Under the pieces are notes generated by a model. It saw nothing but the letters and a program-made list of their open reading frames with translations. It was not told the DNA's origin and did not search any database. Shown here piece by piece: positions 16,545-54,883 of a DNA stretch of 64,000 nucleotides. Position numbers and translations under genes: made by a program. Position 1 is the stretch's first letter. Every line of letters begins with the position of its first letter. Where the stretch lies: positions 2,605 through 66,604 of the forward strand of contig NZ_RBZW01000072.1 in the NCBI RefSeq assembly GCF_006543045.1. Direction: 5' to 3'. The DNA comes from Salinadaptatus halalkaliphilus (lineage in GTDB: Archaea; Halobacteriota; Halobacteria; Halobacteriales; Natrialbaceae).

Positions 16545-16546
16545 GA

Positions 16547-21676: not shown

Positions 21677-21699
21677 TGACTACAGGATACGGTGGTAAG

Positions 21700-21706: not shown

Positions 21707-21733
21707 GCACTTGGGAAAGTCCCCTTCATTATT

Positions 21734-34873: not shown

Positions 34874-35149
34874 ATCTGGTAATAACGGCGACCGAGCGTA
34901 AAACACTGATCTGCGAGACGTAATTGATTCAGAGCCAGATTTGAGTGGCAGAGGATTTTGGATGATTTTCTAACGGTGGATATAGTAGCTACTGAAATAA
35001 ATCGTCATATAACAGTTCAAACACGTCTCCGCGACTGCCCGACAAACAATCACGCTCTTCGGTATTTAGGGGAATGCGTTGACGGCGGCGCAATATTTCT
35101 CGGTACGTAACAGAGGAATTTTGTTTTAGATCTGAATTAGAACGCTGAT

Positions 35150-35332
35150 CTAGTCCCCATCATAGACACAAGTGTATTTCAGCACCGTCCTTCCCTTGTT
35201 ATCCTCTTCAGTTTCAATTGCAAATACATCTCCTCGCTCGATATCATGTTCTCTGGTCACAGATGCAGGGATAGAGATATCCATCGTTGCCGTGCCCTTC
35301 CGACCACGCACCTTCACAGTCTTCTTCGTCAT
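35150..35332 (-). CDS. AbrB/MazE-type small transcription factor
   Basis: A 60-residue protein with the swapped-hairpin AbrB signature: VRGRKGTATMDISIPASVTR, EHDIERGDVFAIETEED, and a final strand VLKYTCVY. Such proteins bind DNA as dimers and often regulate their own gene or act as antitoxins. No PIN or MazF toxin is next to it. An AT-rich stretch lies just upstream of its start. Confidence 0.75.
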   Translation of the reverse strand: MTKKTVKVRGRKGTATMDISIPASVTREHDIERGDVFAIETEEDNKGRTVLKYTCVYDGD

Positions 35333-35492
35333 CGTGCGAATGGCAACGTAAGATGGCCAAAAGCACTTTTTTAGACATTATGTTTGATATGTACATAAAT
35401 AGTAGGAGAGTTGATTTATCCGACACCGTTATACCTATCACGCGATAAGTTTCGCCGGGGGATGGGGGAATCCTCCACTTTCCCCACTCACA

Positions 35493-35750
35493 ATGAAATA
35501 CCAAATTGACAGCGACGAATCCACAGCCATCGCTGTTGTCCAAGCTGTTGCTGACCACAAAGGAGTCCATCACGAAGAATTGGAGCCAATTTACGAATCT
35601 GTAGAACCGGATGCCTTGGATTCTCTGGTAGGCAATGGTTCTGACGTTGTGGTTCAGTTCGAATATGCTGGCGAGGTCGTTACAGTTGACTCTAGTCGGA
35701 TTTGCTTGGAAGACAGGGAATACATGGAGCGGGCTTGCGAAGGCAACTAG
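35493..35750 (+). CDS. HalOD1 output-domain protein
   Basis: An 85-residue protein from ATG 35493. It matches the haloarchaeal HalOD1 domain: AIAVVQAVADHKGVHHEELE, PIYESVEPDALDSLV, VVVQFEYAGEVVTVDSS. HalOD1 occurs alone or as the output of response regulators; its molecular action is unknown. Its stop overlaps the end of the convergent gene 35747-35935 by 4 bases. Confidence 0.8.
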   Translation: MKYQIDSDESTAIAVVQAVADHKGVHHEELEPIYESVEPDALDSLVGNGSDVVVQFEYAGEVVTVDSSRICLEDREYMERACEGN

Positions 35751-35935
35751 TCGTCTAAATCCACATCCGTGTCGACGTGAGCCTGTAGAACGTTCCGGAT
35801 GTGGAAATCTTTCTCGCTGGAATCTTCCGCTTGGAGAGCCTGTTCTAGGTGTGTCTTCGCATCTTCGCTAAGCCCTGTCATCCGCAGATAGAACCTATGG
35901 ATTGGTGTAGAAAAATCTTCCTTTTCGACTGTCAT
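35747..35935 (-). CDS. small haloarchaeal protein, unknown
   Basis: A 62-residue protein from ATG 35935. It reads STPIHRFYLRMTGLSEDAKT, HLEQALQAEDSSEKDFHIRN and VLQAHVDTDVDLDD: acidic, mostly helical, without cysteine pairs. It overlaps the convergent HalOD1 gene at the stop codons. I do not recognise it; the length and neighbours fit a small regulatory or adaptor protein. Confidence 0.5.
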   Translation of the reverse strand: MTVEKEDFSTPIHRFYLRMTGLSEDAKTHLEQALQAEDSSEKDFHIRNVLQAHVDTDVDLDD

Positions 35936-36182
35936 ACCAACAAGTATTAGATCCATTGCTAATGTCGTACCTCAGGTACCTTCCCATTGTATCCTAGGTT
36001 CGACACTGTCTAGATAATGGCGGCGAGAGGTGTCCAATGTAACCCACCAATCTGCTCAGAGAGACGACGCTGGCGCAGCCATTCGTGATGGGCTACTTGT
36101 ATGTACAAATAATCACAATACTTCACTGAGGAGGACGACCGACTCGAACAAGCGGACACTGCGAGTGTCTGGAAAGACAACC

Positions 36183-36326
36183 ATGCCTGAATGTCAAAAC
36201 TGTGGATCACACGTTACGGCGCGATTTGAGCGAGTTTTCGGCGATAACGACGGCGACGTACACGGATGCCGGGAGTGTATGAAGACGACAGAAATCGTAA
36301 ACGGTGAAGCAACCAGAGGACCATGA
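36183..36326 (+). CDS. small zinc-finger protein (DUF7563-like)
   Basis: A 47-residue protein from ATG 36183, beginning MPECQNCGSHVTARFERVFG and followed by DVHGCRECMKT. The two CxxC pairs make a single zinc ribbon, as in small haloarchaeal proteins I know as DUF7563. The stop overlaps the next start (ATGA, 36323-36326), coupling it to the HNH gene. It may be a DNA-binding accessory. Confidence 0.7.
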   Translation: MPECQNCGSHVTARFERVFGDNDGDVHGCRECMKTTEIVNGEATRGP

Positions 36327-36955
36327 CCGACGAACCGTCTAGCGGTTCCACCGGCGCTCACGCCGAGGATGGACAGGTTGGTGACGACGATTCCACCACA
36401 GTTCGTGAGTTGCTTGAAGAGATCGGTGTCGACCCTGCCGACCTCGAGAGTGTTGACGACCTGCAGGATGTCGTCGAGCTGGACCTCTCTACTGAGGGTG
36501 AGACAGTTGATCCCGACGACGTCGATCTGGCGGACGTCCTCGATGCCCCTGTCACCGTTGAAGAGAACCAGACTCCAGCGGGGGTCGTTCGCCAATCGAC
36601 ACAGGACTACCCGCCTGATTGGGATCGCCGTCGACGGCAAGTGTATGCCCGGGACGACCACCAGTGTCAAAACTGCCGTCGCCGAGGCGGCCCGTATGGT
36701 GACGTCGAATTGCACGCCCACCATATCGTTCCAAAGTCACGCGGTGGGGTTCACCGCCTCGAGAACCTCGTCACGGTGTGTAAATCATGTCACGACGCCG
36801 TTCACTCGAGGAACGCAGTTGCACCGACGGCGATTACGGACGCCGAAGCCGAACCCTCGACGCTCGCTGAAGTGCTTGCCGGGATCAAGTCTGCGAAAAC
36901 GGCCTTCCGACGATGGAAGCGGATGTACCGGAAGGTCTCGCGATTTGGACCATGA
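36323..36955 (+). CDS. HNH endonuclease
   Basis: A 210-residue protein. The first 90 residues are acidic and helical (TVRELLEEIGVDPADLESV). The HNH domain lies at about 100-165: RRRRQVYARDDHQCQNCRRR, VELHAHHIVPKSRGGVHRLE, NLVTVCKSCHDAVHSR. The catalytic His in AHHIVP, the Asn and final His (CKSCHDAVH) and the CxxC zinc pairs are all present. A basic C-terminus (FRRWKRMYRKVSRFG) may bind DNA. It is coupled to the zinc-finger gene before it. It may be a homing-type, phage-type or defence nuclease; the sequence cannot decide. Confidence 0.85.
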   Translation: MTDEPSSGSTGAHAEDGQVGDDDSTTVRELLEEIGVDPADLESVDDLQDVVELDLSTEGETVDPDDVDLADVLDAPVTVEENQTPAGVVRQSTQDYPPDWDRRRRQVYARDDHQCQNCRRRGGPYGDVELHAHHIVPKSRGGVHRLENLVTVCKSCHDAVHSRNAVAPTAITDAEAEPSTLAEVLAGIKSAKTAFRRWKRMYRKVSRFGP

Positions 36956-37009
36956 CTTACGATATCTCTATTCGACCTTGGTAGCGAACCCAGAGAACCC
37001 GACTTCCCG

Positions 37010-37377
37010 TCATAGCTTCACCTTATGACCAGAAGCACTTAAGGGAGAGTTGGGTTTTGGAACTTGGAGCGTGTCATAGAATCGTTCGCAACGATCAGTA
37101 GAGATGCGGAATGCCCGGACGTACGTGAAGTAGCTGTTTGCCGTCGAACCGGCGATCCTGTTGTCGATGTGCTTCTCACGGAGGTATAAGCCGTACTCTC
37201 GAAGATCGTTCGATGCGAGGGTCCCAACGTGATCGACGTTTTCTCGTTCGCAGAACGCAGCAAAGTCCTCGAGTCGTAGACCGGCAAATATCCCACCTGC
37301 GGTACGGGAAGCCGTGCCTTTCAGGGCGCGGAGGATGCCACTTGACGGTACGAATCGGTTGCTGCCCGGGACATCAT
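37010..37377 (-). pseudogene. N-terminal fragment of a tyrosine recombinase
   Basis: After a start region MSRAATDSYRQVASSA the frame shifts near 37325. It then reads GIFAGLRLEDFAAFCEREN, VDHVGTLASNDLREYGLYLR and AGSTANSYFTYVRAF. This is the SAM-like core-binding domain of haloarchaeal XerC/D-type integrases. The catalytic domain with R, HxxR and Tyr is absent; the frame ends at 37010. It is a dead fragment from an earlier integration or deletion. Confidence 0.65.
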
Positions 37378-37432
37378 AGACTGAGGTGAGGTGACCGAAC
37401 TCTTATCCACCCGCTCCGTGTATACGAATCTA

Positions 37433-37702
37433 ATGAGTACCGACACCGATCGGAAAGACGCCCCAGAAATCCGAACGAGGATCACGCTCACCGAGGAAGA
37501 TGAGTGGTGGGTCGCAACCGACGAAGAAACAGGTGTCACCAGCCAGGGGGGGACGCGCGTAGAGGCATTGGAAAACCTCGACGAAGCCGTTGAACTCCAT
37601 AAAGGAGACGGTCGGGAGCCAACCAACGAAGAACTCCGTGAGATTGGGATCAACCCAGAAAACAACAAGTCGGGAGACACACTCCCAGACGCGCTTAAGT
37701 AA
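37433..37702 (+). CDS. HicB-family antitoxin
   Basis: An 89-residue protein from ATG 37433 (an earlier in-frame start at 37391 is less likely). It shows the partial RNase H fold of HicB antitoxins: ITLTEEDEWWVATDEETGVT, SQGGTRVEALENLDEAVELH, then PTNEELREIGINPE. It precedes the HicA gene by 11 bases. It should bind and silence HicA. No extra DNA-binding domain is obvious beyond the C-terminal helix. Confidence 0.88.
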   Translation: MSTDTDRKDAPEIRTRITLTEEDEWWVATDEETGVTSQGGTRVEALENLDEAVELHKGDGREPTNEELREIGINPENNKSGDTLPDALK

Positions 37703-37713
37703 GTACACTCAGG

Positions 37714-37968
37714 ATGGCGAGGGGTACGTATTCTGGCGACGATGTGATGACCGTCTTAGTCAACCATGGGCCGTTCTACGTCGATCGCGTTAATGGCGAC
37801 CACTTCATTCTTCGCTGGAACCCTCCCGAAGATCATGATTCAGATGCACGAACGGTTGTCGTGCCCCGTCACGACGAGATCAGTACGGGAACGCTCAAGC
37901 GAATCGGTGATCAAGCTGGGATGAAAGATTTCCAGCAATTTCTGGACTGGCTCGATCGAAACCTGTAG
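37714..37968 (+). CDS. HicA-family toxin (mRNA interferase)
   Basis: An 84-residue dsRBD-fold protein: SGDDVMTVLVNHGPFYVDRV, then GDHFILRWNPP with the catalytic histidine, and VVVPRHDEISTGTLKRIGDQ, AGM. This is the full HicA pattern, so the toxin looks intact. It cleaves mRNA when free of HicB. The antitoxin-first order is the reverse of the commoner hicA-hicB order but is frequent in haloarchaea. Confidence 0.88.
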   Translation: MARGTYSGDDVMTVLVNHGPFYVDRVNGDHFILRWNPPEDHDSDARTVVVPRHDEISTGTLKRIGDQAGMKDFQQFLDWLDRNL

Positions 37969-38104
37969 GAACAGCCGTCTTCGAGTGACTGTTTCGCGGA
38001 CGACGTTCAGATCCTCGATGAGTCGGTTCTGATTGCTCGTTCTTTCCCCTTCACTCATCATTAGTTACGACAGAAACGTAGTGTGGGTCTTTTCCCAGTC
38101 GAAC

Positions 38105-38428
38105 TCATTCATCCGGGTTAACCGGGCCCTTGTACTTCGAGGTTACCTTGTCCCCGTCTCTCCACTGCCAGTAGTAGTAGCGATTGTCGTTGATCTCTTT
38201 GATCGTGATCGTCGCCTTTGCTGGAACGTCGTCCGGAAGATCGTCTGGTCGGTCCTCGATGTCGTCCTCATCAGACTTTTCCTCGAGACGAATTTCGCGT
38301 TCCTTGTGTTCGGCCAACGCTTCGGCGTAGCGGGCAATGTCCTGAAGCCGTTCTGGGGAGGATTCGTTGAGGCTGTTAACGAACTCCGTAGCGAGGTCAG
38401 CCGGTGGGGTTGGTGGTTCGTAGGACAT
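38105..38428 (-). CDS. DUF6788-like small haloarchaeal protein
   Basis: A 107-residue protein. A helical, acidic N-terminus (SPERLQDIARYAEALAEHKE) leads to a basic beta-rich end: NRYYYWQWRDGDKVTSKYKG, PVNP. That end fits DUF6788-like proteins found on haloarchaeal mobile elements. Its start lies 13 bases from the inverted-repeat element at 38442-38483, and a paralogue at 58215 (broken) has the same element in the same place, so the two copies share their control region. The function is unknown. Confidence 0.7.
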   Translation of the reverse strand: MSYEPPTPPADLATEFVNSLNESSPERLQDIARYAEALAEHKEREIRLEEKSDEDDIEDRPDDLPDDVPAKATITIKEINDNRYYYWQWRDGDKVTSKYKGPVNPDE

Positions 38429-38441
38429 CAGCGATCCCCGT

Positions 38442-38483
38442 GTTAACCAACACGTGTCCCCAATCCAAAGTTCTGTTGGTTAA
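38442..38483. repeat. inverted-repeat element copy A (TTAACCAACA...TGTTGGTTAA)
   Basis: Perfect 10-base arms separated by 22 bases, just before the start of the DUF6788-like gene at 38428. Two more copies are at 47288-47327 and 58160-58200. Read towards the gene, the spacer contains GGGGACACGTG, resembling the spacer of copy C. Confidence 0.8.
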
Positions 38484-38664
38484 TTTGGAGTAGGAACCGG
38501 CTTTCTGTAATATCATTTGAATTCGTCGCAAACCCCTTCTCAGATGACAACTATCGAAACATCGCCAATTGAGTACTCTAGCGACTCCGAGACCGTGGTC
38601 TCGTCGAAACAGATACCAGTCACTACCAGTTCAACGGCTTCTCACTGTGGGTTCGGACCGTGAG

Positions 38665-38964
38665 TTAATCATCCAACTGTGTCTTTTCCAGCGTTGAAGC
38701 ATCTAATTCACCGTCAAGGAACTGTTCTCCCTGCTCATTTAGATTGTAATTTTTGTAATTTCTATCTAAAAGGCCATATTCACTCAAGTTTTTACACCTT
38801 CGAGAGATGTGTGGCCGACTATAATCGATGCCATCACAGATATCATTTAATGCATGGCCAATTGCAGATGATGAGTGGATTCCTGCCCCTCGCAGCCATT
38901 CCATAATAACCTCATCGGCTTGGGTAGTCCATTCAGCTCTTTTTCGTACATCGTCTTCTGCCAT
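38665..38964 (-). CDS. PhiH1 repressor-like winged-helix protein
   Basis: About 99 residues from ATG 38964; longer in-frame starts exist to 39057. It reads RAEWTTQADEVIMEWLRGAG, DGIDYSRPHISRRCKNLSEY, GLLDRNYKNYNLNEQGEQFL. This is a winged helix with the recognition helix SRPHISRRCKNL, the pattern of haloarchaeal PhiH1-type repressors. It stands divergently, 345 bases before the primase-helicase gene, the usual place for an element's control repressor. Its codons are AT-rich compared with the primase gene. Confidence 0.75.
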   Translation of the reverse strand: MAEDDVRKRAEWTTQADEVIMEWLRGAGIHSSSAIGHALNDICDGIDYSRPHISRRCKNLSEYGLLDRNYKNYNLNEQGEQFLDGELDASTLEKTQLDD

Positions 38965-39309
38965 ACAAACCTTTCCGTACTCCTTGGACATAAATGCACC
39001 CATAAGATATAATAGTCCAGTATGTACATTTAGATCATAGGCCTGCATAGAAATCATGGTGCGGAAGAGAACACCGTACAGACAGACTCAGACATCAATA
39101 AACAATCAACGAATCCGCAAACACCACACGTAAGGCTAAGAGTCCAACTCTCTGGGAGAATCACAGTGTGGCCCTGTTGCCGCCCAATCCCTTAATATAG
39201 GTAGTAATTCTCCACTCAACGGCTTCAGCGCTCCGCTACACTTGAGGAGCGGCTGCGCTGTCATTGGTGGTGCCTTCGGACGGTAGAAGTCGATTGCAAA
39301 ACCAACGAT
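38965..39309. promoter_or_regulatory. divergent control region between repressor and primase-helicase
   Basis: It holds a CTTAATATAGG stretch near 39190-39200 that could be a TATA box, and a hairpin CGCTCC-N11-GGAGCG at 39229-39251 followed by GGCTGCGCTG. No gene fits. It may include the element's operator or replication start; this is inferred from position only. Confidence 0.35.
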
Positions 39310-42300
39310 ATGCCAAACACTGACCGACAACAACGACAGCAGATAGACGAAAGAATTGGCCTCAAAAGACAGATTGACCGCTATCTCAGCCACCACCCCA
39401 ACGCTGGCGTGAGCGAGATTCTCGGCAGATTTGAGCTCAATCCTAATGACTGGGGTGATTATGTCAGACAGACTGCTGAGTCTACTACGCCCACGATTCC
39501 GCCGAACAACAGCGCAACACCAAACAGTACTGATTGCGTCGACGAAGACAATGTGGATCCGTCGACGTTAGCAGAATGTGCTAACGAACTTGCCGATAGA
39601 TGGGAGGACGTTGATTTCACTGAGACGAACAGCGACACCTGGCCGCCTACGCTCCACAAGCGCGAGCAGTGGATGGGGCGCCAGGATAAGCTACCATTCG
39701 CTCCTTGGGGAGATTACGACCACCCGGAAGCTGACCCTGACGAAGACGCCCGTTGGAAGTGGGGGCTCGAGGAGAACTACGTCGACGGTGAAACGGTCGC
39801 AATCGCCGAGGATGACCCCCGCCTTGACGGGCGCGTGTTCATCCAACTCGAGGACGACCCGTATGCGTTCGTCGACGGCGACGACATTCGTTGTCCTGAA
39901 ACGGGCGAGGTGCATCCGGCGTTCGTGGCGATCCTTGAACACCTCGGGGCGACCTACGCCGACGTATCGACCTCTGGATCCGGCGTTCACGCCTACTACC
40001 GTGGGGAACTGCCTATCGACGGAACGGAGCAAGCAACGTTCGCTCTCGATAGTGACCCGTGGGGCAAGAATGACGATGTACCGACGGTGGAGATCTACGC
40101 CAACAAGCATGTCAACGTCGCGACCGGGGAACACGTTGAGGAGACGCCCCTAGAGGTGGCCAAGTGGGACACCGACGTGCTTCGGACAATTCTCAAAGTC
40201 AATGGGTACGAGGATCAGGAGTCGGTCGAGCACGACACCGACCGAGAACGCCCCGAACTCAAGGGCTATAACCCCGATTCGACTAGTGCCGACGAAACTA
40301 CCGCCGACATCCGGGATGTCCTCGCTACGGTCGACAACTTGGAGCCGTCCGATGTTCGTCTACGAACCCGGCAAACAGGTGAAGAGTCAACCGGGTGGAG
40401 TACGTGGGATCCCAGCTATCGCGCGTCTGCGAGCGGTGAGAGCCTCCACTACAATGGCGAAGGCGTGTTCCACGACCACAAAGAAAATGAGGCCTTCGGT
40501 GTCCTCGGGCTGATCGCCGTTGAGGAGGACATTATTTCCAACCCATGGGACCGCCTCACCGGCGCTGAGTGGTGGAATGCCGTCGAGGCCGCTCGCGATC
40601 GCGGCGCACCGATTCCAGAACTCGATCGATCGGTGGGGCAGCAAGCAACCGAGCCTACAACTGTCCTCCCCAGTGAGGATATCCTCCCACCCGTGACTGC
40701 CTGGGACTGGGAGGCTGCAGGCGCTCGAGCGGCTCATGGAGAGCTTCCGGAGCAAGACACACTCGACGTCGATGATGTCCGAGAGCGCACTGTCGAGACG
40801 ATTGCAGACGGTTACAAACGAGGCGACCGCCGGCTCGTTGAGGTCCTCCCGACCGGTGGGAAGTCCTTCGGCTCGATCGAGGCCGCCGCACGAACTAGTG
40901 AGCCGATCACTTATCTGACCGGCCGAGGGCGAAAAGAACAGTACGACCAAATCGCCGAGTGGTGCCGAGAACACGGTCTTACCTACAAGATCCTTCCAGC
41001 GTTCACCCGCGACTGTCCGACCGCTAGCGGCGAACACGGCGAGGATTGGAAGGAAACTGTCCTCGACTGGTACAACCGCGGTGCAACTCCCCAAGACATC
41101 CACAAATACGCCGAGGACATCCTCGATCGACCGCTCCCGTGCCAAGTTGGCCATGATGAGAACCACGTTGACTGCCCCTATGCTCGCAAGTGGGACTTTG
41201 ACCCCGAGACAGACGGGAGCGCGGACCCAGATGAAGATCTACAGATTAACGTCCTCATCGGCCACTACACACACGCCCATCGCGAAGACAAGGTCGTCCA
41301 CGGCCGGACCGTGGTATTCGACGAGTTCCCCGGCGGAGCCTACGAACGGACCCTTGACCATGGCATCGAAGGCGCCGTCACCTACTACCTGCAGAGTCAC
41401 GACGCGATCCCGTTTGACCACTACACCGAGTTGCTCGAGGGGCGCGACGACGACGCCCGACGAGCCAACGCACTCACCGAACTTCTCGATCACAGAATCG
41501 ACCCAGACGGGCGAGCAGTCCTTAAGGACGACGCTGCGAACGCCGCTGCTCCGCTAGCTGCGTTCACCTTGTTGGCTGCCGCGGAGAACAATCTTGGGAA
41601 CGGGCTTGAGCGCGCCGAGTTCGCTGCCGACGGCCACGACAACGACGATTCACGTGTCGGCCTTCACGACCGCGAAGAGGGTACCGTCCGCGTCCTTGCT
41701 CCACCAGACCTCTCCTACGCCCGCGGCGTGGTCGCGCTCGACGGGACGCCGACTAAATCAATGTGGGAGCTGGTGCTCGGCGAGCGACTTAACCACCGCC
41801 AGATTCTGACCGACGACGAGCGGCGGGACTACCTCCGGGACGCCCTAGACCTCAATCTGGTGCGAACGTCGGAGTACGTCAAGCCGTACAACTCGGCGGA
41901 CCACGTCGCCGTCAACGACGACGCTGCCCTCTTAGAGGCAATCACCGAGCGCCACGACGAGGATCCCAGCGTGATTACATCGATGACCGCTCTTCAGGAG
42001 TACGAGTGCGAGGGGGTGCTCTCCTACAATGACAACACCGGTGAAGTGCTCGAGGGCCCTGCCGACCAGGTGAGGTGGTACGGCAACGTCCTCGGCAGCA
42101 ACGAGTTCAAGCACAAGCGTGTCGGGGCGGTTATCGGATCGACCCATTACGGGGACCGGTTCATCCAGAAGTGGGGTGCCTACGCCGGCGAAGCCGTCGA
42201 GCGAAACGACGAGAAGGGGGCTGAGCTCTCCTACGGCGAGTTCGGCGACGACGTCCTCCAGCACATGCGAGAACACACGACGCTACAAAGCGTTATGCGC

Positions 42301-42828
42301 TTCGGGCGCGACGGGGAGGGGGCGGTCGTCTACGTGCACACCGATACGCTCCCAGAGTGGGTCGAGCCCGTGATTGCTGCTGAGGGGCGCGTTATCCGGA
42401 CCCGGAGCGAGGGTGAACAGCAAGTAATCAAAGCCGCCACCGACCTCCACAGCTGGCAGACCGCCGAAATCGCCGAACACCCAATCGTCAACGTGGGCAA
42501 GCGACAGGTGTTCAACATCCTGAACGACCTCGCCGACCACGGCTACCTGCAGCGAGAAAGCGATGGGCGAGGGTATGTTTGGTACGATGACGGCCTCCAC
42601 AGGATCAATGACCACGGCGATGTCGAACTCGAGCCAGTCGAGCTTGACGGAGCTGAGGGGGCAAACGAAGTTGAAGAAATAGCACGTAGAAAAACAATCT
42701 ATACGTGGGATTTCCGCAACTCCCCATGTGAGCTCACTTCCGATCCGGCAGACTCGCTCAACGACATTGATAGGTTGGCATCTGAGCCGGCTACCGGAGG
42801 TGATCGACCGCCTGATTCCATCGACTGA
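39310..42828 (+). CDS. primase-polymerase-like protein fused to an SF2-type helicase and C-terminal winged helix
   Basis: A 1172-residue replication protein. Residues 115-240 look like a prim-pol domain: QDKLPFAPWGDYDHPEADPD, VFIQLEDDPYAFVDGDDIRC, ADVSTSGSGVHAYYRGELP. The helicase part has LVEVLPTGGKSFGSIEAAAR (P-loop), YLTGRGRKEQYDQI, VVFDEFPGG (DExx box), VVALDGTPTKSMWELVLG and TLQSVMRFGRDGEGAVVYV (arginine motif). A winged helix ends it (QTAEIAEHPIVNVGKRQVFN...DHGYLQRESDGRGYVWY). It probably primes and unwinds DNA of an integrative element or virus-related plasmid, with the integrase downstream. The gene is GC-rich beside AT-rich flanks. Confidence 0.8.
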   Translation: MPNTDRQQRQQIDERIGLKRQIDRYLSHHPNAGVSEILGRFELNPNDWGDYVRQTAESTTPTIPPNNSATPNSTDCVDEDNVDPSTLAECANELADRWEDVDFTETNSDTWPPTLHKREQWMGRQDKLPFAPWGDYDHPEADPDEDARWKWGLEENYVDGETVAIAEDDPRLDGRVFIQLEDDPYAFVDGDDIRCPETGEVHPAFVAILEHLGATYADVSTSGSGVHAYYRGELPIDGTEQATFALDSDPWGKNDDVPTVEIYANKHVNVATGEHVEETPLEVAKWDTDVLRTILKVNGYEDQESVEHDTDRERPELKGYNPDSTSADETTADIRDVLATVDNLEPSDVRLRTRQTGEESTGWSTWDPSYRASASGESLHYNGEGVFHDHKENEAFGVLGLIAVEEDIISNPWDRLTGAEWWNAVEAARDRGAPIPELDRSVGQQATEPTTVLPSEDILPPVTAWDWEAAGARAAHGELPEQDTLDVDDVRERTVETIADGYKRGDRRLVEVLPTGGKSFGSIEAAARTSEPITYLTGRGRKEQYDQIAEWCREHGLTYKILPAFTRDCPTASGEHGEDWKETVLDWYNRGATPQDIHKYAEDILDRPLPCQVGHDENHVDCPYARKWDFDPETDGSADPDEDLQINVLIGHYTHAHREDKVVHGRTVVFDEFPGGAYERTLDHGIEGAVTYYLQSHDAIPFDHYTELLEGRDDDARRANALTELLDHRIDPDGRAVLKDDAANAAAPLAAFTLLAAAENNLGNGLERAEFAADGHDNDDSRVGLHDREEGTVRVLAPPDLSYARGVVALDGTPTKSMWELVLGERLNHRQILTDDERRDYLRDALDLNLVRTSEYVKPYNSADHVAVNDDAALLEAITERHDEDPSVITSMTALQEYECEGVLSYNDNTGEVLEGPADQVRWYGNVLGSNEFKHKRVGAVIGSTHYGDRFIQKWGAYAGEAVERNDEKGAELSYGEFGDDVLQHMREHTTLQSVMRFGRDGEGAVVYVHTDTLPEWVEPVIAAEGRVIRTRSEGEQQVIKAATDLHSWQTAEIAEHPIVNVGKRQVFNILNDLADHGYLQRESDGRGYVWYDDGLHRINDHGDVELEPVELDGAEGANEVEEIARRKTIYTWDFRNSPCELTSDPADSLNDIDRLASEPATGGDRPPDSID

Positions 42829-43220
42829 CTGGGTTGTTCCGTGACAAGCGCACTCACGATTAGCTACTGGTCCGTCCAAGTCAGCTCCGAACCGGGAGCT
42901 GACAAAAACGTTCGTACAGCGATTATAACTGGATCACTCTCTGTCCGGATTGGGACTCGTATTCAACAAGAGTTGATTGATGGAAGAGAAGGTGGAATGT
43001 AAAAACTCAAATAAATCGAGTGAAATAACCGTGCTGAGACCAACATAAGAAAACTGACTAAAATGAAACGAGGACTCTACGTTTTCAATGATAATGTGGA
43101 GATTCCGCGAACTTTCCTCCGCAATATAAAGATCCTTTTTAAAATAATGCCATATACATTATAAGAATTACCTTACATTCTTGGTAAGACATAAGTTGTT
43201 ACTACATTAATAATAGCCAA
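42829..43220. other. AT-rich non-coding region before the integrase
   Basis: Strongly AT-rich, especially 43,000-43,220. A short inverted repeat TTACC-N11-GGTAA lies around 43167-43187, followed by a TA-rich stretch up to the integrase ATG. No gene is visible. It could hold the integrase promoter and the element's attachment site; no matching second att copy was found by eye. Confidence 0.4.
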
Positions 43221-44051
43221 ATGCCCCGACGTACCGCGATCCCGCTCTACAAATCTCGCCACGTGGCCTTCGTCAGAGGTGCAGCTGACTACCCTAATTT
43301 TGACAAAGGGCTTTCAGGAGTCCTTCACGTCGGAACAGGTGTTCGACCTGACACTATAGGCCATGTTCATACCAATTGGTTTCGTTGGAAACCAACACGA
43401 GACGGAGAGCCCACGCTCTACCTGAAAGTGCCGGCTAGCGATCCCTGTCGAAAGTATGGAACTCATGAACCGTGCGGCGACTGCAACATGCTAGGCCACG
43501 GCGAGTTTGAACCGAAGACTCCAGCTGGCGAAGGCCGTGAAATCCTTATCGACGACACTTGGACGAACCCAGTCACCAAGGAGCGTGAATATTTCCCTCT
43601 CAAAGATATGGTTAGACGTTATTTTGCACATACAGGAACCCACGCCCCTGACGATGCCATGCACGGTGAAAAGATGATCGGTGGGGACGGCGTTTCCAAG
43701 GGTACCCTCAACAAATGGTACCGTGACATTGGTGCTTACACCGAGATTAGTGCCCAGTTCCGCGAAGATCGGCTCCGCCAGGAATTGGAAATAAAAGACC
43801 CTATCGACAATTCCAATGACCGTGAAACGGTACAAATCAAGAATTTTGGAACAGATGACAAGGGGAACGAGATACCGGATATTATCTCCCACGATCTCCG
43901 TGCAACGTTCTGTACACAGTTGATGCGTACCGACACGAATCCTGACAAAGCCATCAAAAAAACCGGCCACAAAACAGCTCAGAGTATGGCCCCCTACATT
44001 TCGTTCGCAAATGGAGAGATCGACAAACAGGAAGAAACACACATGTACTGA
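43221..44051 (+). CDS. tyrosine recombinase (integrase), catalytic-domain form
   Basis: A 276-residue protein with the catalytic set of tyrosine recombinases: TGVRPDTIGHVH (Arg I) near residue 44, ISHDLRATFCTQLM (HxxR box) near 228, then KKTGHKTAQSMAPYISFA with the His and the nucleophilic Tyr. The usual N-terminal SAM-like arm-binding domain is missing: Arg I comes very early. An insertion with CRKYGTHEPCGDCNMLGHGE may be a zinc-binding loop. It lies between the replication gene and an HNH-repeat fusion gene, 4 bases before the latter. It probably integrates or excises the element, perhaps with help from its neighbour. Confidence 0.8.
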   Translation: MPRRTAIPLYKSRHVAFVRGAADYPNFDKGLSGVLHVGTGVRPDTIGHVHTNWFRWKPTRDGEPTLYLKVPASDPCRKYGTHEPCGDCNMLGHGEFEPKTPAGEGREILIDDTWTNPVTKEREYFPLKDMVRRYFAHTGTHAPDDAMHGEKMIGGDGVSKGTLNKWYRDIGAYTEISAQFREDRLRQELEIKDPIDNSNDRETVQIKNFGTDDKGNEIPDIISHDLRATFCTQLMRTDTNPDKAIKKTGHKTAQSMAPYISFANGEIDKQEETHMY

Positions 44052-44055
44052 GTCA

Positions 44056-45375
44056 ATGAAACGAATCAGTGAACAAGAACTCCTCGATGAGTTACGCCGA
44101 CTCGGTGGGGACTCAGCACCGTCAATCACAGATATGAAGTCAGACGGAAAATTTAGTAGAACTCCTTACGAGAGCAGGTTTGGATCCTGGAATGCCGCTG
44201 TGAGGGCCGCCGGGTACATCCCGAACAGCTCACCTACTGAGAAGGAACTCCTTGAGGAGATGCAGCGGGTAGGTGGAGACTCAGCACCGGAAACGTCAGA
44301 TATGAAGTCAGATGGACAATTCTGGCCTAGTATCTACCGGCGCCGTTTCGGGAGTTGGAATGCCGCTCTAAAGACTGCCGGCTACACCCCAAACGACCAC
44401 TGCACTGAAGATGAACTCCTCGACGAAATGCGCCGACTCAGTGGGGACAAACAACCAACAATGTCAGAGATGAACTCAAACGGAAAATTCAGTGTAGGTC
44501 CTTACAAAGATCGATTCGGGAGCTGGAATGCTGCCGTAAGAGCTGCGGGCTATAGCCCGAACAGGGAACAGAATGTCTCTGACAGACAGCTACTTACTGC
44601 GCTCCGGGAGGCTTCGGATGGTGATGATGTCGCACCACCGCAAGAATCAGCCAGTAAAACCGGCTTTGGCGCTTCGACATATCAATATAGATTTGGGAGT
44701 TGGTGGCGGGCTGTCGTTCAGGCTGGACTTCTACCAAGAAACCGAAGACCCCTCAGCTCCTCGGAATTCAAAAAGCTCCATACTACCGCTACTGAGCTCC
44801 AGAACTCGGCCTGGAAGTTAGCTGTGCTTCTCGCAATGTTCACTGGGCTCACGGGTCAGTTATTCAATGATCTCGAAAGCGAGTGGGTTGAAGAGCGGCG
44901 TCACGATGTCATCGTCACTGTTCCAGCAGAACAGACAGTATCAGGAAAGAGATGGGAGTTTCGACTTCCTGAGTCGTGGTCTAGTGGTGGAAGAAAGATT
45001 GATACACAGCTCCCCGGTCATACCTTGTGGTTTCAGTCGAACCGATCACTCTCTGGCAGAAGTTCCATGCTATATCAAAGCGCAATAATGAAGACAGCAG
45101 AGAAGGCCGAGCTTACAGAAAGAGAACAAACTATTCCAGGGCATCCCAATTTCAATCAGCCAGTCCCGTTAGTGCGAGCAAGTGATCTGCGAGCAACCGG
45201 TGGTATTAGAATGGCGCGCAACAGTGTTCCTGTTCATCGAATCCGTCGCCATCTTGGTATTAAGCACACCAACTGGCATGCAAGTATTGAGGACTTCTTC
45301 CTGTGGCTGTACGTTCACGAAGACATCACTCACAACCAGTATGACCCGCCAAACGTTGTCCTTGATCCAGTTTAG
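44056..45375 (+). CDS. four HNH-associated repeats fused to a degenerate tyrosine-recombinase domain
   Basis: A 439-residue protein from ATG 44056, 4 bases after the integrase stop. Residues 5-210 hold four homing-endonuclease-associated repeats of about 50 residues, each with (L)LDEMRRLGGD..PT, DMKSDGKF and RFGSWNAAVRAAGY. The fourth is more divergent (RFGSWWRAVVQAGL). The C-terminal half looks like a recombinase catalytic fold: LAMFTGLTGQLFNDLESEWV, ASDLRATGGIRMARNSVPVH, RIRRHLGIKHTNW, FFLWLYVHED. The first catalytic Arg is not present (TGLTGQLF) and Ser replaces His in the HxxR box. It may be a DNA-binding accessory that targets the active integrase next to it; that is inference. Confidence 0.75.
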   Translation: MKRISEQELLDELRRLGGDSAPSITDMKSDGKFSRTPYESRFGSWNAAVRAAGYIPNSSPTEKELLEEMQRVGGDSAPETSDMKSDGQFWPSIYRRRFGSWNAALKTAGYTPNDHCTEDELLDEMRRLSGDKQPTMSEMNSNGKFSVGPYKDRFGSWNAAVRAAGYSPNREQNVSDRQLLTALREASDGDDVAPPQESASKTGFGASTYQYRFGSWWRAVVQAGLLPRNRRPLSSSEFKKLHTTATELQNSAWKLAVLLAMFTGLTGQLFNDLESEWVEERRHDVIVTVPAEQTVSGKRWEFRLPESWSSGGRKIDTQLPGHTLWFQSNRSLSGRSSMLYQSAIMKTAEKAELTEREQTIPGHPNFNQPVPLVRASDLRATGGIRMARNSVPVHRIRRHLGIKHTNWHASIEDFFLWLYVHEDITHNQYDPPNVVLDPV

Positions 45376-45553
45376 TCCTGATTCCACCGCTGTTCTCACC
45401 AACGATCTGAATCACCCGATAGTAACATAGCTGTTGTATGCTTTCAAATTAGTTAAAATCCATCCCTATTCCGACGATTTTGCCGTATGAATCCTACATG
45501 TGAGAATATATCTACTGAATCTCAACTAATATCGGCCGTAATTGTAGAGTTGG

Positions 45554-46423
45554 CTATTTAGTAGAAGACTCAATTCCAGCAACAAGCCGCGAGTCGATGA
45601 ACGCATCGCAGAGTTGGTCGTCGGTACAGATGGATCGGATCAGTCCGTCGATTCGCTCGACCGACTGGGGGAGATTGTACCGGTCGACAAGCGCTGGGGC
45701 ATGCCACGACTCGAGTGGCCGCCCAGTAACAGCAGCGTGGCGAAGCCCAAGCCGAATAATCTGGAGATCATGCCGCGAGTCAAACCCCCAGGCTTCAGCG
45801 CGATCCTCGAGTTCGGTATCGTAGGTATCGAAGCCGATGATGTCGTGACATTCACGGCAGAGACAGATCCCCTGATCGGGATTATGGGACCAATGGTGGT
45901 AGTCGAGGCTCCCGTTTGCAATCGCGCCGTCGTGGTTGAGAGTCGTCAGTGAGCGCCGACACAGCGGACAGGAGACGTCCCAGTCCCAGCCAAAGGCTGA
46001 GGCTTTCTCTGCTAACCGGCTCGTGTACTCGTCGTTGCGCGGCTCGCCTTTGCTGTTCGTAATGCCACCCCAGAGCCAGTCGTCCCAGAACCGTTGGACC
46101 ATCGCTGTCAGCGTCGAGGGCTCGACAATTGAGAGATACGCAGCATCGACCGCGACAACACACCAGACGCGCAACTCAACGTCGCATTGGCCACAGGCAA
46201 TGTCGAGATGCGGGACGACTGTTGGAAGCCCCTGCTCGTAGACGGTGACGGCCTCGCCACAGTTCGGACAGCAGATCGCGGTCGGTGTCTCGGCCAGGGC
46301 ATGCTGGTCGTTTGCCTCGAGCAAGACAGCCGCTCGATCGCCATATGGGTGGTTGGGAGTCGTCGGATGATGGGGTGTTGCTACGAGGTCGTCACGCGGT
46401 GGACACGATCTTGCGTGTGTCAT
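45554..46423 (-). CDS. HNH-type nuclease with N-terminal zinc ribbon
   Basis: A 289-residue protein. The N-terminal zinc ribbon is CCPNCGEAVTVYEQG...DIACGQCDVELRVW. The HNH region at about 150-200 reads VSCPLCRRSLTTLNHDG, GSLDYHHWSHNPDQGICLCR and ECHDIIG, with CxxC pairs, the catalytic DYHHW and the final CRECH. The C-terminal 80 residues are helical. Related proteins are common on haloarchaeal plasmids; the role may be defence or element maintenance. It overlaps the small gene 46420-46686 (ATGA). Confidence 0.75.
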   Translation of the reverse strand: MTHARSCPPRDDLVATPHHPTTPNHPYGDRAAVLLEANDQHALAETPTAICCPNCGEAVTVYEQGLPTVVPHLDIACGQCDVELRVWCVVAVDAAYLSIVEPSTLTAMVQRFWDDWLWGGITNSKGEPRNDEYTSRLAEKASAFGWDWDVSCPLCRRSLTTLNHDGAIANGSLDYHHWSHNPDQGICLCRECHDIIGFDTYDTELEDRAEAWGFDSRHDLQIIRLGLRHAAVTGRPLESWHAPALVDRYNLPQSVERIDGLIRSICTDDQLCDAFIDSRLVAGIESSTK

Positions 46424-46686
46424 ACTGCCGATTCCGCCTTAGGGGCTAGGGCATCCGTGATGTCTGGCTGCTGGCACTGCAGGTTCTCGATCGGCTCGAC
46501 AGTCTCGACCTGCCAGCTGCCATCGTGGCGCGATTCGTCGACGCGCCAGAACTGCGAGTTGTCTTGGCGTTTAACGTACCGGATGCGCCGTTCCTGATTG
46601 TTTGTGCTTTCCGAAAACGACACAACGAATGCTGTCTCGGTTGCTGTGCTGTTACTGGTCGGATGATGGGTTTGGGGTTCGATCAT
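46420..46686 (-). CDS. small unknown protein coupled to the HNH gene
   Basis: An 88-residue protein with stretches TAFVVSFSESTNNQERRIRY, VKRQDNSQFWRVDESRHDGS and WQVETVEPIENLQC. The central part looks like a small all-beta domain. The stop overlaps the HNH gene start by 4 bases, suggesting coupling. I do not recognise it. Confidence 0.5.
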   Translation of the reverse strand: MIEPQTHHPTSNSTATETAFVVSFSESTNNQERRIRYVKRQDNSQFWRVDESRHDGSWQVETVEPIENLQCQQPDITDALAPKAESAV

Positions 46687-46887
46687 AACTGAAGACAGAA
46701 CAGTCAGTGGCTACCAGCTGTCAACTACAAGGCCGACGCCGGCTCTTTTTGTACTGACTCTCCTTCACTGCTTCCGGGAAATAAAAACACAATTCTACAC
46801 AGATTCGTCTGTGGAAATAACCGCCATCGTATACAATGGCCAACAAAGATATTTTGTCACCATCGCAACTCATGACTGGGGATTGGA

Positions 46888-47163
46888 ATGAAACTGCGAC
46901 AGCCAACAGATTTTCTTATCCTTGAAGCACTCGAGGAGACTGGTCGAAACGTAGCAACGAATCTTGCGCATCATACAAACAAATCACGGCAAAATATCAA
47001 TACCCGTCTTCCAGTACTCTCAGACTATGGACTCGTCCAGAAAGTTGGTCCTGCCGATCGCTCTGGGCTTTATGAAATTACATCGCTTGGGGAACGGGCA
47101 CTTCGCTACCGCGAACAATACGATGAGAACGAAAATTTTGAGGATTTGCTTGCAAGCACCTGA
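46888..47163 (+). CDS. PhiH1 repressor-like winged-helix regulator
   Basis: A 91-residue paralogue of the protein at 8424-8774: KLRQPTDFLILEALEETGRN, VATNLAHHTNKSRQNINTRL, QKVGPADRSGLYEITSLGER. The recognition helix differs at a few positions, so the targets may differ. It lacks the acidic tail of its paralogue. It starts at ATG 46888 after an AT-rich leader region and stands 125 bases before inverted-repeat element copy B, a possible operator for it or for the next gene. Confidence 0.85.
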   Translation: MKLRQPTDFLILEALEETGRNVATNLAHHTNKSRQNINTRLPVLSDYGLVQKVGPADRSGLYEITSLGERALRYREQYDENENFEDLLAST

Positions 47164-47287
47164 CCGGTTCGATCCTCGAAAAGACGGAAATATCTCACAT
47201 GCCGTGTTTGAAAAGATCTGGTGAGCCCAATGAAGACCCCAGGTTGAGAGGCAGTCCTCACCCGTTGACCGACACCGGCGCAGAGAA

Positions 47288-47327
47288 TTAACCAACAGAC
47301 GGCCGCAAGGAGGTGTCTGTTGGTTAA
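47288..47327. repeat. inverted-repeat element copy B
   Basis: Here the arms extend to 13 perfect bases, TTAACCAACAGAC and GTCTGTTGGTTAA, with a 14-base spacer. The 10-base core arms are those of copies A and C. It lies 50 bases before the ATG at 47377, between a PhiH1-like repressor gene and a small gene of unknown function. Confidence 0.8.
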
Positions 47328-47376
47328 CGAGCGACTGATCCGTAGAATTTTCGGGTAGCATGTAGTGGAAAGACTA

Positions 47377-47682
47377 ATGGCTGATAGCGAACAGGCAGAG
47401 AAACAATACCATGCGGCGTCAAGTGTCGACCTTCTATCGGCATTGTCAGCACTCGATATCGAATTTTTGACCGTCTCTGACCAGCGCGTGCTCATCATCT
47501 ACGCCCGATCGATTCTCAACGTCGACGTGAATACGGGTGATATCCAGAGCGCTGATGCTCTCGAGGTAACCGTCCTTGATCACGATCCAAGTGGTGGTAT
47601 CAATGATCCATATGGTCTGATCACGAGAGTTATCGACCAGATCGACGAAATGGCTGGGGGTAATCTGTCTCCGGTGCCCTGA
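47377..47682 (+). CDS. small haloarchaeal protein, unknown
   Basis: About 101 residues from ATG 47377. It reads AASSVDLLSALSALDIEFLT, VLIIYARSILNVDVNTGDIQ, SADALEVTVLDHDPSGGIND: a mixed alpha/beta acidic protein with no known motif that I can name. It has copy B of the inverted-repeat element in its upstream region and the PadR operon 57 bases downstream, on the same strand. Confidence 0.55.
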   Translation: MADSEQAEKQYHAASSVDLLSALSALDIEFLTVSDQRVLIIYARSILNVDVNTGDIQSADALEVTVLDHDPSGGINDPYGLITRVIDQIDEMAGGNLSPVP

Positions 47683-47705
47683 GCTATTCACCTAGGAATA
47701 TCGAC

Positions 47706-47716
47706 GTTTTTAACAA
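47706..47716 (+). promoter_or_regulatory. TATA-like box of the PadR gene
   Basis: GTTTTTAACAA is centred about 28 bases before the ATG at 47739, fitting leaderless transcription and supporting ATG 47739 over GTG 47733 as the start. Confidence 0.45.
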
Positions 47717-47738
47717 CTAACACCCTCAATTAGTGTCT

Positions 47739-48026
47739 ATGTACGATCTTACTGGGTTTCAACGGGACCTTCTTTATACAATTGCCGGACAGGATGATCC
47801 CCATGGACTCGCGATCAAAGACGAACTCGAGGATTACTACGAGAAAGAAATTCACCATGGGCGACTCTATCCGAACCTCGATACGCTCGTCGATAAAGGT
47901 CTCGTCGAGAAAGGGGAAGCAGATCGTCGGACGAACTTCTACAGCGTTACCCGACGTGGCCAGCGCGAGATTGAAGCACGACGAGAGTGGGAAAATCAGT
48001 ACGTTGGTGAGTTGCTCGACGGATGA
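47739..48026 (+). CDS. PadR-family transcriptional regulator
   Basis: A 95-residue winged-helix protein: MYDLTGFQRDLLYTIAGQDD, PHGLAIKDELEDYYEKEIHH, GRLYPNLDTLVDKGLVEKGE, FYSVTRRGQREI. The Y..L..L...GLVE core and wing are typical of haloarchaeal PadR proteins. The C-terminal helix is short, as in PadR-s2 types. It is followed by an overlapping mini-gene. Confidence 0.85.
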   Translation: MYDLTGFQRDLLYTIAGQDDPHGLAIKDELEDYYEKEIHHGRLYPNLDTLVDKGLVEKGEADRRTNFYSVTRRGQREIEARREWENQYVGELLDG

Positions 48027-48133
48027 TCGACCTCATTCGTGGCCCGTTTGAGCTGTTGGAACACCAGTCAGACACTGATACTGATGATAAGACGTCCGAC
48101 GCCGAGACCAGTAACAAGGACCCATCAAAGTAG
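48023..48133 (+). CDS. mini-protein coupled to the PadR gene
   Basis: A 36-residue frame overlapping the PadR stop by 4 bases (ATGA). It begins MIDLIRGPFELLEHQ and ends in an Asp/Thr/Ser-rich tail. The overlap and the haloarchaeal amino-acid bias suggest it is translated; no function can be given. Confidence 0.4.
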   Translation: MIDLIRGPFELLEHQSDTDTDDKTSDAETSNKDPSK

Positions 48134-48272
48134 CCACTGGCTCGGGTACACTCTTCGTTCAGCAAAAGGAATATTTCTGCCGTTCCGTCCGTGCCTCTGA
48201 CACTTGCTCGGCGTGCCTGGAGGGTGGCATTCAGCCCAGCAACAGAATTAGTTGCTTGAAACACATATAGGT

Positions 48273-49673
48273 TCAGTACTTCACAAAGCCGTTAGTTGAG
48301 AAGTCCGCTTGCTGAGTTGTGTCCAACAACCAGCCACAAGCGGACAGTGAAATCCACGAAGACCAGCTCCTTAACTTTCTCGTCAACGTTCTCACCGGCG
48401 CATTCACGCTGGACTTCGGTGAGAACGCAGAAATCGATCCAGAGGACATCTTCGAGGTCCTCGTCGGCGCGACCGCCGACGGGACCTCGATCTCCTCACT
48501 CTGCGAGAAGAGTGAGGATGCGCCTTCTGGGAACGATGTTCTCTATCACCTACGCACCAAGTTCGACCTCGAAACCGTCGAATCAACCGGGAACGCGCTT
48601 CTCCAACAAGATGTCCTCGACACGCTTCCCCAGCAGGTGGAGGTCGTCGCTGACCTCCACCTGCGGCCCTACTACGGTGACGAAGACGAGACTGACGGCC
48701 TCTACTACAGCGAAGCCAAAGCAGGAACGACTGCGTTCCACGCCTACGCCACACTCTACGCCCGCGTGAACAACAAACGCTACACCTTGGCGGTGCGCCG
48801 TCTTACCGACGGCGACACCGCCAGCGATGTCCTTTCTGAGTTCCTCGGACTGGTCAGCAACTTTGACTTCGACGTCAAAGCGGTCTATCTCGACAGCGGC
48901 TTCTACGACGGGAAGTGTCTCACGTTGCTCCAGGCACACAATTTCGCGTACATCGTTCCGGTGATCAAGTGGGGCAGCACGATCAAGAACGAACTCAGCA
49001 CCGGTTGGAGTCGTGAGATCACTCACGATCTCACGACGTCCTACGGCGAGAACGAGTGGACCGTCGAGTTTCCAGTGATGATCGACTGTACCTACAAGAA
49101 CGGTCGCTACGGTGAGCACGGGGTGGCGCGTCACGGCTACGCCGTCGACGCGCTGTTCGTCGATGAACCTCGACAGGCCCGATCCCACTACAGCAAGCGG
49201 TTCGGGATCGAAGCGAGCTACCGTCTCTCCGAGTCAACGATCATCTCGACGACGACGCAAGATCCCACGAGACGGCTGTTGTTCGTCGTACTCAGCCTGT
49301 TGATTCAGAACGTCTGGCGGTACTTGCACTGGGAGTATGTGGCGACGCCCCGTCGAGGCGGGCGTCGCCTCTGGTGGTGGCCATTCGAAGAGTTCGTCGA
49401 CATGGTGACTCGGGCAGCGTGGACGGCCCTCGCGGTGCGTCGGGCCGTCCCCGCGAACCGGCTACCGGATGATCGGTTTCACCGGTAACCGGTGACCGGG
49501 GACGCCCTATCGACCAGTGGCAACACCGTCGCGTCGGCGGCTAATTGCCGCCGACTGCGACAGCCTCTCGTCTCTTGTTGTCGGGTAGATCTATGGAGAA
49601 CAGATTCTGCTCTGATTCGTCGGCAACTCACGCTTCAGCGCCAGTTAGCTGAGGCTGATTTGTGAGGTACTGA
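48273..49673 (+). mobile_element. ISH3-type insertion sequence, about 1.4 kb
   Basis: The transposase gene is flanked by imperfect terminal inverted repeats: TCAGTACTTCACAAA on the left (about 48274-48288) and TTTGTGAGGTACTGA on the right (49659-49673). The inner parts (GTTAGTTGAG and the inverse of AGTTAGCTGAG) are also related. The length fits ISH3 elements. The 5 bases outside the two ends differ (TAGGT versus TCTTG), so no target duplication is visible. Confidence 0.75.
48319..49488 (+). CDS. ISH3-family transposase
   Basis: A 389-residue transposase starting at GTG 48319, full length for ISH3. The DDE residues can be placed in VEVVADLHLRPYYG, VKAVYLDSGFYDGKCL and KRFGIEASYRLSES. A stretch of tryptophans and arginines near the C-terminus (GGRRLWWWPFEEF) is usual in this family. 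There is no frameshift, so the element may still be active. It is inserted between the PadR mini-operon and the gene at 49827, apparently without breaking either. Confidence 0.9.
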   Translation: MSNNQPQADSEIHEDQLLNFLVNVLTGAFTLDFGENAEIDPEDIFEVLVGATADGTSISSLCEKSEDAPSGNDVLYHLRTKFDLETVESTGNALLQQDVLDTLPQQVEVVADLHLRPYYGDEDETDGLYYSEAKAGTTAFHAYATLYARVNNKRYTLAVRRLTDGDTASDVLSEFLGLVSNFDFDVKAVYLDSGFYDGKCLTLLQAHNFAYIVPVIKWGSTIKNELSTGWSREITHDLTTSYGENEWTVEFPVMIDCTYKNGRYGEHGVARHGYAVDALFVDEPRQARSHYSKRFGIEASYRLSESTIISTTTQDPTRRLLFVVLSLLIQNVWRYLHWEYVATPRRGGRRLWWWPFEEFVDMVTRAAWTALAVRRAVPANRLPDDRFHR

Positions 49674-53575: not shown

Positions 53576-54883
53576 ATGAGTCGATCAGATGCCGAACAGG
53601 AGAGCGAGAGCAACGTTGAGCAGGCGCTATCATTCGATGGTGTTCGATGGACCTCGTGTTCGCTCGAAGACTTCGCGGACCTGTACTGGGACGAGATCGC
53701 ACCCTGTCTCGAAACAGAGGGTTTCGATCCAACAAGCGAGAAACCGACCCACCAGTGGTTTCAGAATCACGATGCACGATCATTCCTTGCGGCTCTCCGC
53801 CGCCATCATGACCGCTCATTCGGGGAGTTCTGGAATAAAGACCTCGGGCTTGGAGACAATAAAGAAGGCTACACATGGGCAACAACGGACGAGGCAACAA
53901 TCGACGCCCTCGAACAGTTCCTCAACCGACGAAAATCACGGTACAGTCTGGCATCGTCGTCCATCGAAGCAATGCGAACGCGGCTGAATCTCTACGTCCG
54001 TGCTTACCAAGAGGCAAATGGAACGGGCGACCTCCTTACACCAATTCTACGAGGTCAAGAGAATCCAGCCTACGAAGCCGTTGATGCGGTCTATGCAGCG
54101 TTCGACTGGTTGAACGAGGGAACCGAGGACAAGTACAGTGCCCAGACTCTCCAGCGTGTGCGGCGCGTCGTCGACGCCTGGTATCAGCATCTGGTCGGTC
54201 GGCGAGTTACCTCGATGAACCCTGCCAGCGGCCTCTACGACGAATTCAAGTGGGAAGTAGAAGAATCCCCGACACCTTCCCTTTCAGCAAACCATATTCA
54301 GAAGCTAATGCAGGCGTCGGAGACAACGCAAGAACAGCTGCTCGTAGTAGCACTAGCTGGCTGGGGACTTCGAGCAAGTGAGGTCGCAGCACTCCACGTC
54401 TCGCAGTTCCACCGTGACGTTCCCGAAGACGACGTCCCCTTCATCACATTCGAAAGTCGCAAGAACGGGCCCGGCCAGGTATCTCTCTTGTACGGAATGG
54501 ACGTGCTCGACTCCCGAATCGACGAGCTAGCGGAAGACGATACGTGGACGAGATATTTGTTCCCATCTTCGCAGGGAGAAATGCCGTACGTGACCCGAGA
54601 TACAATCCGTAATTGGTTCCAGAATCTTGCATCGGAGGCAGATCTTCCCGAGCGGATCGAGGGCAAACGACCAAGCCCACAGCTCTGCCGTCGATTCTGG
54701 TACGATACCTATACAGTAGCCCTCGAAGGCGTTCTCGAAGGTATCAACGAAATCGCTGCAGAGCAAGGTAGTAGCGATCCTCAGGTAGTGATGCAAAATT
54801 ACCTATCTGACTCGCGTTCTCGTCAAGTCCGACGAGAGTTCATGCAGGATCAACTTAACGCAGCCTTTGGAGAGAGAACTTGA
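53576..54883 (+). CDS. tyrosine recombinase-like protein upstream of the partition locus
   Basis: A 435-residue protein. The N-terminal half is helical with a core-binding-like domain (SIEAMRTRLNLYVRAYQEAN; VYAAFDWLNEGTEDKYSAQT). The C-terminal half has LVVALAGWGLRASEVAALHV with the catalytic Arg, and LCRRFWYDTYTVALEGV in the HxxR position, where Gln stands for His. MQNYLSDSRSRQVRREF supplies a possible Tyr. It resembles plasmid-borne haloarchaeal recombinases next to parA, perhaps acting as a dimer resolvase. The changed His makes full activity uncertain. Confidence 0.75.
   Translation: MSRSDAEQESESNVEQALSFDGVRWTSCSLEDFADLYWDEIAPCLETEGFDPTSEKPTHQWFQNHDARSFLAALRRHHDRSFGEFWNKDLGLGDNKEGYTWATTDEATIDALEQFLNRRKSRYSLASSSIEAMRTRLNLYVRAYQEANGTGDLLTPILRGQENPAYEAVDAVYAAFDWLNEGTEDKYSAQTLQRVRRVVDAWYQHLVGRRVTSMNPASGLYDEFKWEVEESPTPSLSANHIQKLMQASETTQEQLLVVALAGWGLRASEVAALHVSQFHRDVPEDDVPFITFESRKNGPGQVSLLYGMDVLDSRIDELAEDDTWTRYLFPSSQGEMPYVTRDTIRNWFQNLASEADLPERIEGKRPSPQLCRRFWYDTYTVALEGVLEGINEIAAEQGSSDPQVVMQNYLSDSRSRQVRREFMQDQLNAAFGERT

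Follow-up and report, generated by a model that had tools for sequence, protein, structure and literature searches.

A short integrase and its catalytically dead, repeat-bearing neighbour: a putative two-subunit tyrosine recombinase of haloarchaeal plasmids

Why should an integrase that lacks its usual DNA-binding domain be followed immediately by a protein that resembles a recombinase but has lost the active site, and could the two make up one enzyme? The question arose from a 64-kb stretch of Salinadaptatus halalkaliphilus DNA (64,000 nucleotides, hereafter the window). A sequence-only reading had proposed that the pair is a split integrase, in which the repeat-bearing protein recognizes DNA and the short protein performs catalysis; comparative genomics, co-conservation and a predicted recombinase fold support this proposal. 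The features of the locus, in window coordinates, are as follows.

39310..42828, + strand: probable plasmid replication protein of 1172 aa, without a Pfam match, directly upstream of the pair
42829..43220, no strand: AT-rich intergenic stretch, present once in the genome and presumed to hold the promoter and the cis-site
43075..43101, no strand: candidate inverted repeat (ctctacgttttcaatgataatgtggag), weak; relatives have stronger ones at about this place
43221..44051, + strand: putative catalytic subunit P0002, a 276-aa tyrosine integrase without a core-binding domain, assigned by catalytic residues and predicted fold
44056..45375, + strand: partner P0001, 439 aa, ATG start, HNH repeats plus a catalytically dead C-terminal domain of predicted tyrosine-recombinase fold
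44077..44223, + strand: HNH_repeat unit 1 (PF18780), residues 8-56
44242..44391, + strand: HNH_repeat unit 2 (PF18780), residues 63-112
44410..44559, + strand: HNH_repeat unit 3 (PF18780), residues 119-168
44587..44736, + strand: HNH_repeat unit 4 (PF18780), residues 178-227, divergent, abutting the dead domain
44731..45363, + strand: dead domain of tyrosine-recombinase fold, residues 226-436, assigned by residues and predicted fold

Catalytic residues and predicted folds

The short integrase had been described as apparently active, and its residues are consistent with this: R42, K99, H224, R227, H250 and Y259 are all in place, at canonical spacing, and they were invariant across nine loci of the HNH type. 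Three cysteines (Cys76, Cys85 and Cys88) were also invariant in six first-subunit sequences (alignment A1). The predicted catalytic fold begins at residue 4 and was aligned to XerA with a VIA-align Z of 13.0, in a weak model (pLDDT 58). With the fold match running from residue 4 and no core-binding (SAM-like) domain present, the missing N-terminal DNA-binding domain was borne out. We excluded a wrongly chosen start that hides such a domain, since the frame is closed by a stop 11 codons ahead of the P0002 start, which leaves no core-binding domain concealed there, and no locus had more than about 34 open codons upstream of its integrase start.

The stop codon of P0002 ends 4 bases ahead of the partner's ATG, exactly the spacing noted before, and translation of the two genes is probably sequential. 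A suicidal split integrase of the SSV type was rejected, as both genes are complete with their own starts and stops and no match to PF16795 (Phage_integr_3) was obtained.

In the partner, the four repeats that had been recognized by eye were identified by Pfam as PF18780 HNH_repeat, in four stretches with an E of 1.9e-57 (191.8 bits, cut-off 26), and no Pfam match to an HNH nuclease domain was found. The C-terminal domain, which is too divergent, gave no Pfam match, and a sequence search of the PDB returned no relatives. Nevertheless, residues 226-436 were predicted by AlphaFold2 (pLDDT 76) to adopt the tyrosine-recombinase catalytic fold, with VIA-align Z values of 15.4 to XerA (5hxy), 14.3 to Brujita Int and 13.6 to an archaeal Xer (4a8e). 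The earlier impression of a recombinase-like domain was thus matched by the predicted fold, and no other fold was found for the C-terminus. The residues that the sequence-only reading had reported as altered were the right ones, the first catalytic Arg being replaced by Thr266 and the His of the HxxR box by Ser376, and the loss goes further, with His-III changed to Ile402 and the Tyr to Phe414, so that only Arg-II (379) is kept.

The arrays of relatives comprised 3 to 9 repeat units, and in these proteins too the last unit, beside the dead domain, was a distinct variant (mostly WW). Between the orthologues L112 and L148, repeat units found their best or equal-best matches in register. Net charge per residue was -0.014 to +0.014 for the window's three parts vs a window mean of -0.099 (sd 0.027), which is as expected for DNA-binding proteins of halophiles. 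The repeats of L115 and L148 were as acidic as ordinary halophile proteins.

Conservation and co-divergence of the pair

Profiles for both proteins were made from six pairs and searched in 391 genomes of the class. The integrase (E <= 2.6e-98) and the dead domain (E <= 1.5e-89) were obtained in the same seven genomes and were always adjacent; the chance of such a coincidence is ~4e-15, a figure that is only illustrative given the shared ancestry of mobile DNA. Matches to P0001 as a whole occurred in 185 of the 391 genomes, mainly through the PF18780 repeats, and the fusion of these repeats to a dead recombinase was confined to seven. Six plasmid records held the integrase, and the same six held most of the repeat protein. 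No close short integrase without the repeat protein was found among the 391 class genomes or the plasmid records. Phage records and viral contigs (IMG/VR, searched with both alignments) gave no match to the pair.

Both pNRC100 and pNRC200 of Halobacterium salinarum NRC-1 carry the pair next to repH, with each gene annotated as 'hypothetical protein', and a further copy is located on pSTJ003 of Halobacterium hubeiense. The locus tags of the H. salinarum genes are VNG_RS13745 and VNG_RS13750. A scan of species-representative genomes added two pairs in Halonotius pteroides (L115 and L116), each on its own circular plasmid (8.28 and 9.20 kb, with 55-bp overlaps). These two plasmids share one strain, at contig coverages of 22.5 and 264. 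When identical copies were counted once, nine distinct loci were obtained, and most of those with a known replicon lay on circular plasmids. The gene order was constant, the integrase coming first, with a gap of -1 to 10 bases. Such a recurrent two-gene arrangement in nine distinct loci indicates that the pairing is more than chance.

The two proteins of the pair co-diverge; over the nine loci their distance matrices were correlated with r 0.87 (Mantel p 0.0002). Purifying selection acts on the dead domain, whose dN/dS was 0.15, 0.15 and 0.30 in close pairs.

Lower-similarity relatives of the integrase were also found to be paired. In eight such distant pairs, an active integrase without a core-binding domain stands beside a dead partner, and each time the active protein retains Arg-I, His-II and His-III and the partner has lost all three. 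The dead partners of L100, L101 and L091 end in a C-terminal winged helix (MarR_2, E 1.8e-5 in L101; HTH_20, E 3.5e-4 in L091), those of L149-L151 have a Cys/His-rich, zinc-finger-like tail, and those of L152 and L176 show by eye a helix-turn-helix-like stretch with a C2H2-like tail. No Pfam domain match was obtained for the tails of the L149-L151, L152 and L176 partners. That other DNA-binding modules take the place of the repeats strengthens the split-integrase reading.

Across near and distant pairs, R, K, H, R, H/W and Y were intact in 17 of 17 active subunits; none of the 17 partners retained Arg-I, His-II or His-III, and in many the Tyr was replaced. The tree placed the active and dead domains of the HNH type in clades sister to each other (98/94), with the remaining dead partners in a second clade (93/94); a single origin for all dead partners was not rejected by the tree test (p-AU 0.285). 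Solo short integrases do occur in haloarchaea, as distant relatives only (profile E about 1e-8 to 1e-30) in other clades of the tree, and hence a missing core-binding domain by itself need not imply a partner. Two partnerless integrases belonging to the family of the winged-helix pairs (L099 3323-3952 and L094 3723-4427) have lost the Lys and His-II and are perhaps decaying remnants.

Plasmid context and upstream DNA

The ends of the window's own contig overlapped by 96 bp, which identifies it as a circular plasmid of ~76.7 kb. A relative of the 1172-aa putative replication protein (32% identical) was found at 5448-8000 of L151, directly upstream of a zinc-finger-type pair, and this suggests a replication-plus-recombination cassette common to the window and L151. 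Downstream of the pair, only unrelated genes or non-coding DNA were seen.

The wider window contained several other elements. A 14.4-kb block that includes the pair (33880-48273) shared 99.6% identity with a contig of Natronorubrum halalkaliphilum, which belongs to a different genus, and most of the plasmid outside the block differed from that species. The right edge of the block lies just ahead of a transposase gene (48319-49488). At 53576-54883 there is a further integrase-like ORF with a very weak Phage_integrase match and an HxxR box that looks degenerate by eye. The region 9368-24967 is a likely defence island, which encodes a BrxHII/DrmD-like helicase, a DrmMI/type IIG-like methylase, a double-HATPase protein, a YgjP-like metallopeptidase and a type II methylase.

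Over the 200 bp next to the integrase start the GC content was 33%, vs 51% in the genes. The window's inverted repeat ctctacgttttcaatgataatgtggag was no better than those of shuffled sequences. Strong inverted repeats were present in L112, L113, L116 and L148, where 0-3% of shuffles were as good; they lie 127-162 bp ahead of the integrase start, alike in place and different in sequence. In L117 and L147 the corresponding repeat was weak, and it did not reach significance in L114, nor at that position in L115. The homology between L112 and L113 starts exactly at the inverted repeat and stops 143 bp past the pair, and the homologous stretch of L149-L151 runs from about 180 bp upstream to the end of the dead gene. 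The upstream region was single copy in genomes G000 and G067, and the inverted repeat was found at one place in G008 and G133. These upstream elements may be recombination sites, operators or both.

An integrated element with flanking att repeats was considered and rejected, as the 64-kb window holds no tRNA, the upstream region is single-copy in complete and draft genomes and, in the zinc-finger type, the CGATATGGTCGTGCTGT core has no second copy nearby. Neither an att pair nor an attB was found.

Interpretation and known systems

Taken together, we consider it probable that this pair of haloarchaeal plasmid genes encodes a single heteromeric, site-specific tyrosine recombinase. Its catalytic subunit, which cuts DNA, would be the short protein. 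The partner would be a dead paralogue: its recombinase-fold domain would pack against the short protein and take up places in the synaptic complex but not cut, and the HNH-associated repeat array would provide sequence-specific DNA binding in place of the core-binding domain, which normally grips the recombination half-site. Cyclic subunit contacts in the synaptic tetramer are established for Cre and Xer, and by analogy the partner's predicted fold would be suited to such contacts. That PF18780 repeats bind DNA we infer from the company the family keeps and from charge. Plasmid multimer resolution or stability would be the likeliest task, because most loci of known replicon lie on circular plasmids and the region of the candidate site occurs once per genome; the alternative would be integration or exchange of modules. 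A broader proposal, which we regard as doubtful, is that two-subunit tyrosine recombinases form a general class in haloarchaea, with an exchangeable target-reading arm on the dead subunit, where the number and order of repeats would specify the site. If true, this would be a modular, possibly re-programmable recombinase whose arms are 3-9 HNH repeats, a winged helix or a zinc finger.

The main rival holds that the repeat protein is a recombinase-derived transcriptional repressor or regulator like MrpR/YopR of SPbeta, which sits on operators ahead of the operon and controls the integrase from outside the recombination complex. MrpR is indeed a DNA-binding repressor of recombinase fold that has lost recombination (PMC10516654), the dead domain was aligned with MrpR, YopR and SroF at Z of about 10-12, and the inverted repeats upstream of the integrase in several loci could be operators. 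However, Xer and Int outscored these repressors in the fold comparison, the partner invariably comes second in a closely spaced pair and co-diverges with an integrase that always lacks its own core-binding domain, and the distant pairs keep the dead partner while the DNA-binding arm changes. We therefore judge this explanation unlikely.

Quite unlikely, in our assessment, is a directionality or accessory factor (Xis-like or TnpC-like) that acts in only one direction, the short integrase needing no help to bind its half-sites. Solo short integrases exist, and the SNJ2 integrase has two helpers, Orf2 and the MarR-like-domain protein Orf3 (PMC8371274); yet the predicted fold of the partner is that of a recombinase related to the integrase and not a small DNA-bending fold, and the partner was never missing beside close integrase relatives. 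The loss of catalytic residues could also point to a functionless, decaying duplicate of the integrase that was fused to repeats by chance. This is very improbable, since the frame is open in nine of nine loci, the dN/dS of the dead domain is 0.15-0.30, the same residues are lost in all partners, and co-divergence and in-register repeat units are retained between orthologues; dN/dS and the open frames contradict a pseudogene outright.

If the heteromeric recombinase is real, its recognition module on a pseudo-enzyme would represent a novel route to specificity; to our knowledge, known tyrosine recombinases combine DNA recognition and catalysis in one chain. It would also assign a role to the two genes annotated as 'hypothetical' next to repH on pNRC100/pNRC200, both classic plasmids, and the presence of the pair in the model organism Halobacterium salinarum makes direct testing possible. 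As the recognition arm varies among relatives, a route to retargetable recombinases is conceivable.

Among known systems, the haloarchaeal SNJ2 integrase has a Phage_int_SAM domain, is active alone and is accompanied by the small helpers Orf2 and Orf3, one coiled-coil and one MarR-like, according to the accessible part of PMC8371274. Its operon likewise joins a tyrosine integrase to accessory proteins, whereas P0002 has no core-binding domain and a single large repeat partner instead of two small helpers. The same part of that paper describes single-domain archaeal integrases (HSTV2-like, fam30) with a Phage_integrase domain and no detected SAM-like N-terminal domain, as in P0002; within the open-access literature, we met no description there of a dead partner for these families or for other archaeal tyrosine recombinases. 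MrpR, YopR and SroF share the dead tyrosine-recombinase fold predicted for P0001, but MrpR has its own core-binding domain, is a master repressor and is not co-operonic with an integrase lacking that domain. Proteins with PF18780 HNH_repeat carry the same repeat and are widespread in the class, and P0001 differs from them by its fusion to a dead recombinase.

Closest are two bacterial systems known to us from portions of PMC10214605 and PMC5385486: Tfp of SE elements and GinC of GInts have a recombinase fold without catalytic residues and are encoded in operons with active tyrosine recombinases. Besides the dead protein, these integrative elements carry a pair of active recombinases and, as a fourth gene, Srap or GinD. 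The haloarchaeal pair resembles them in placing a dead recombinase-fold protein beside an active recombinase. It differs in comprising one active and one dead subunit, with neither a second active recombinase nor Srap/GinD, in residing mostly on plasmids, in an active subunit without a core-binding domain, and in the HNH repeats of its partner, which those portions do not describe for Tfp or GinC. Tfp and GinC, from larger and different gene sets, are the nearest precedents, and the pair described here extends dead recombinase-fold partners beyond the bacterial SE and GInt elements.
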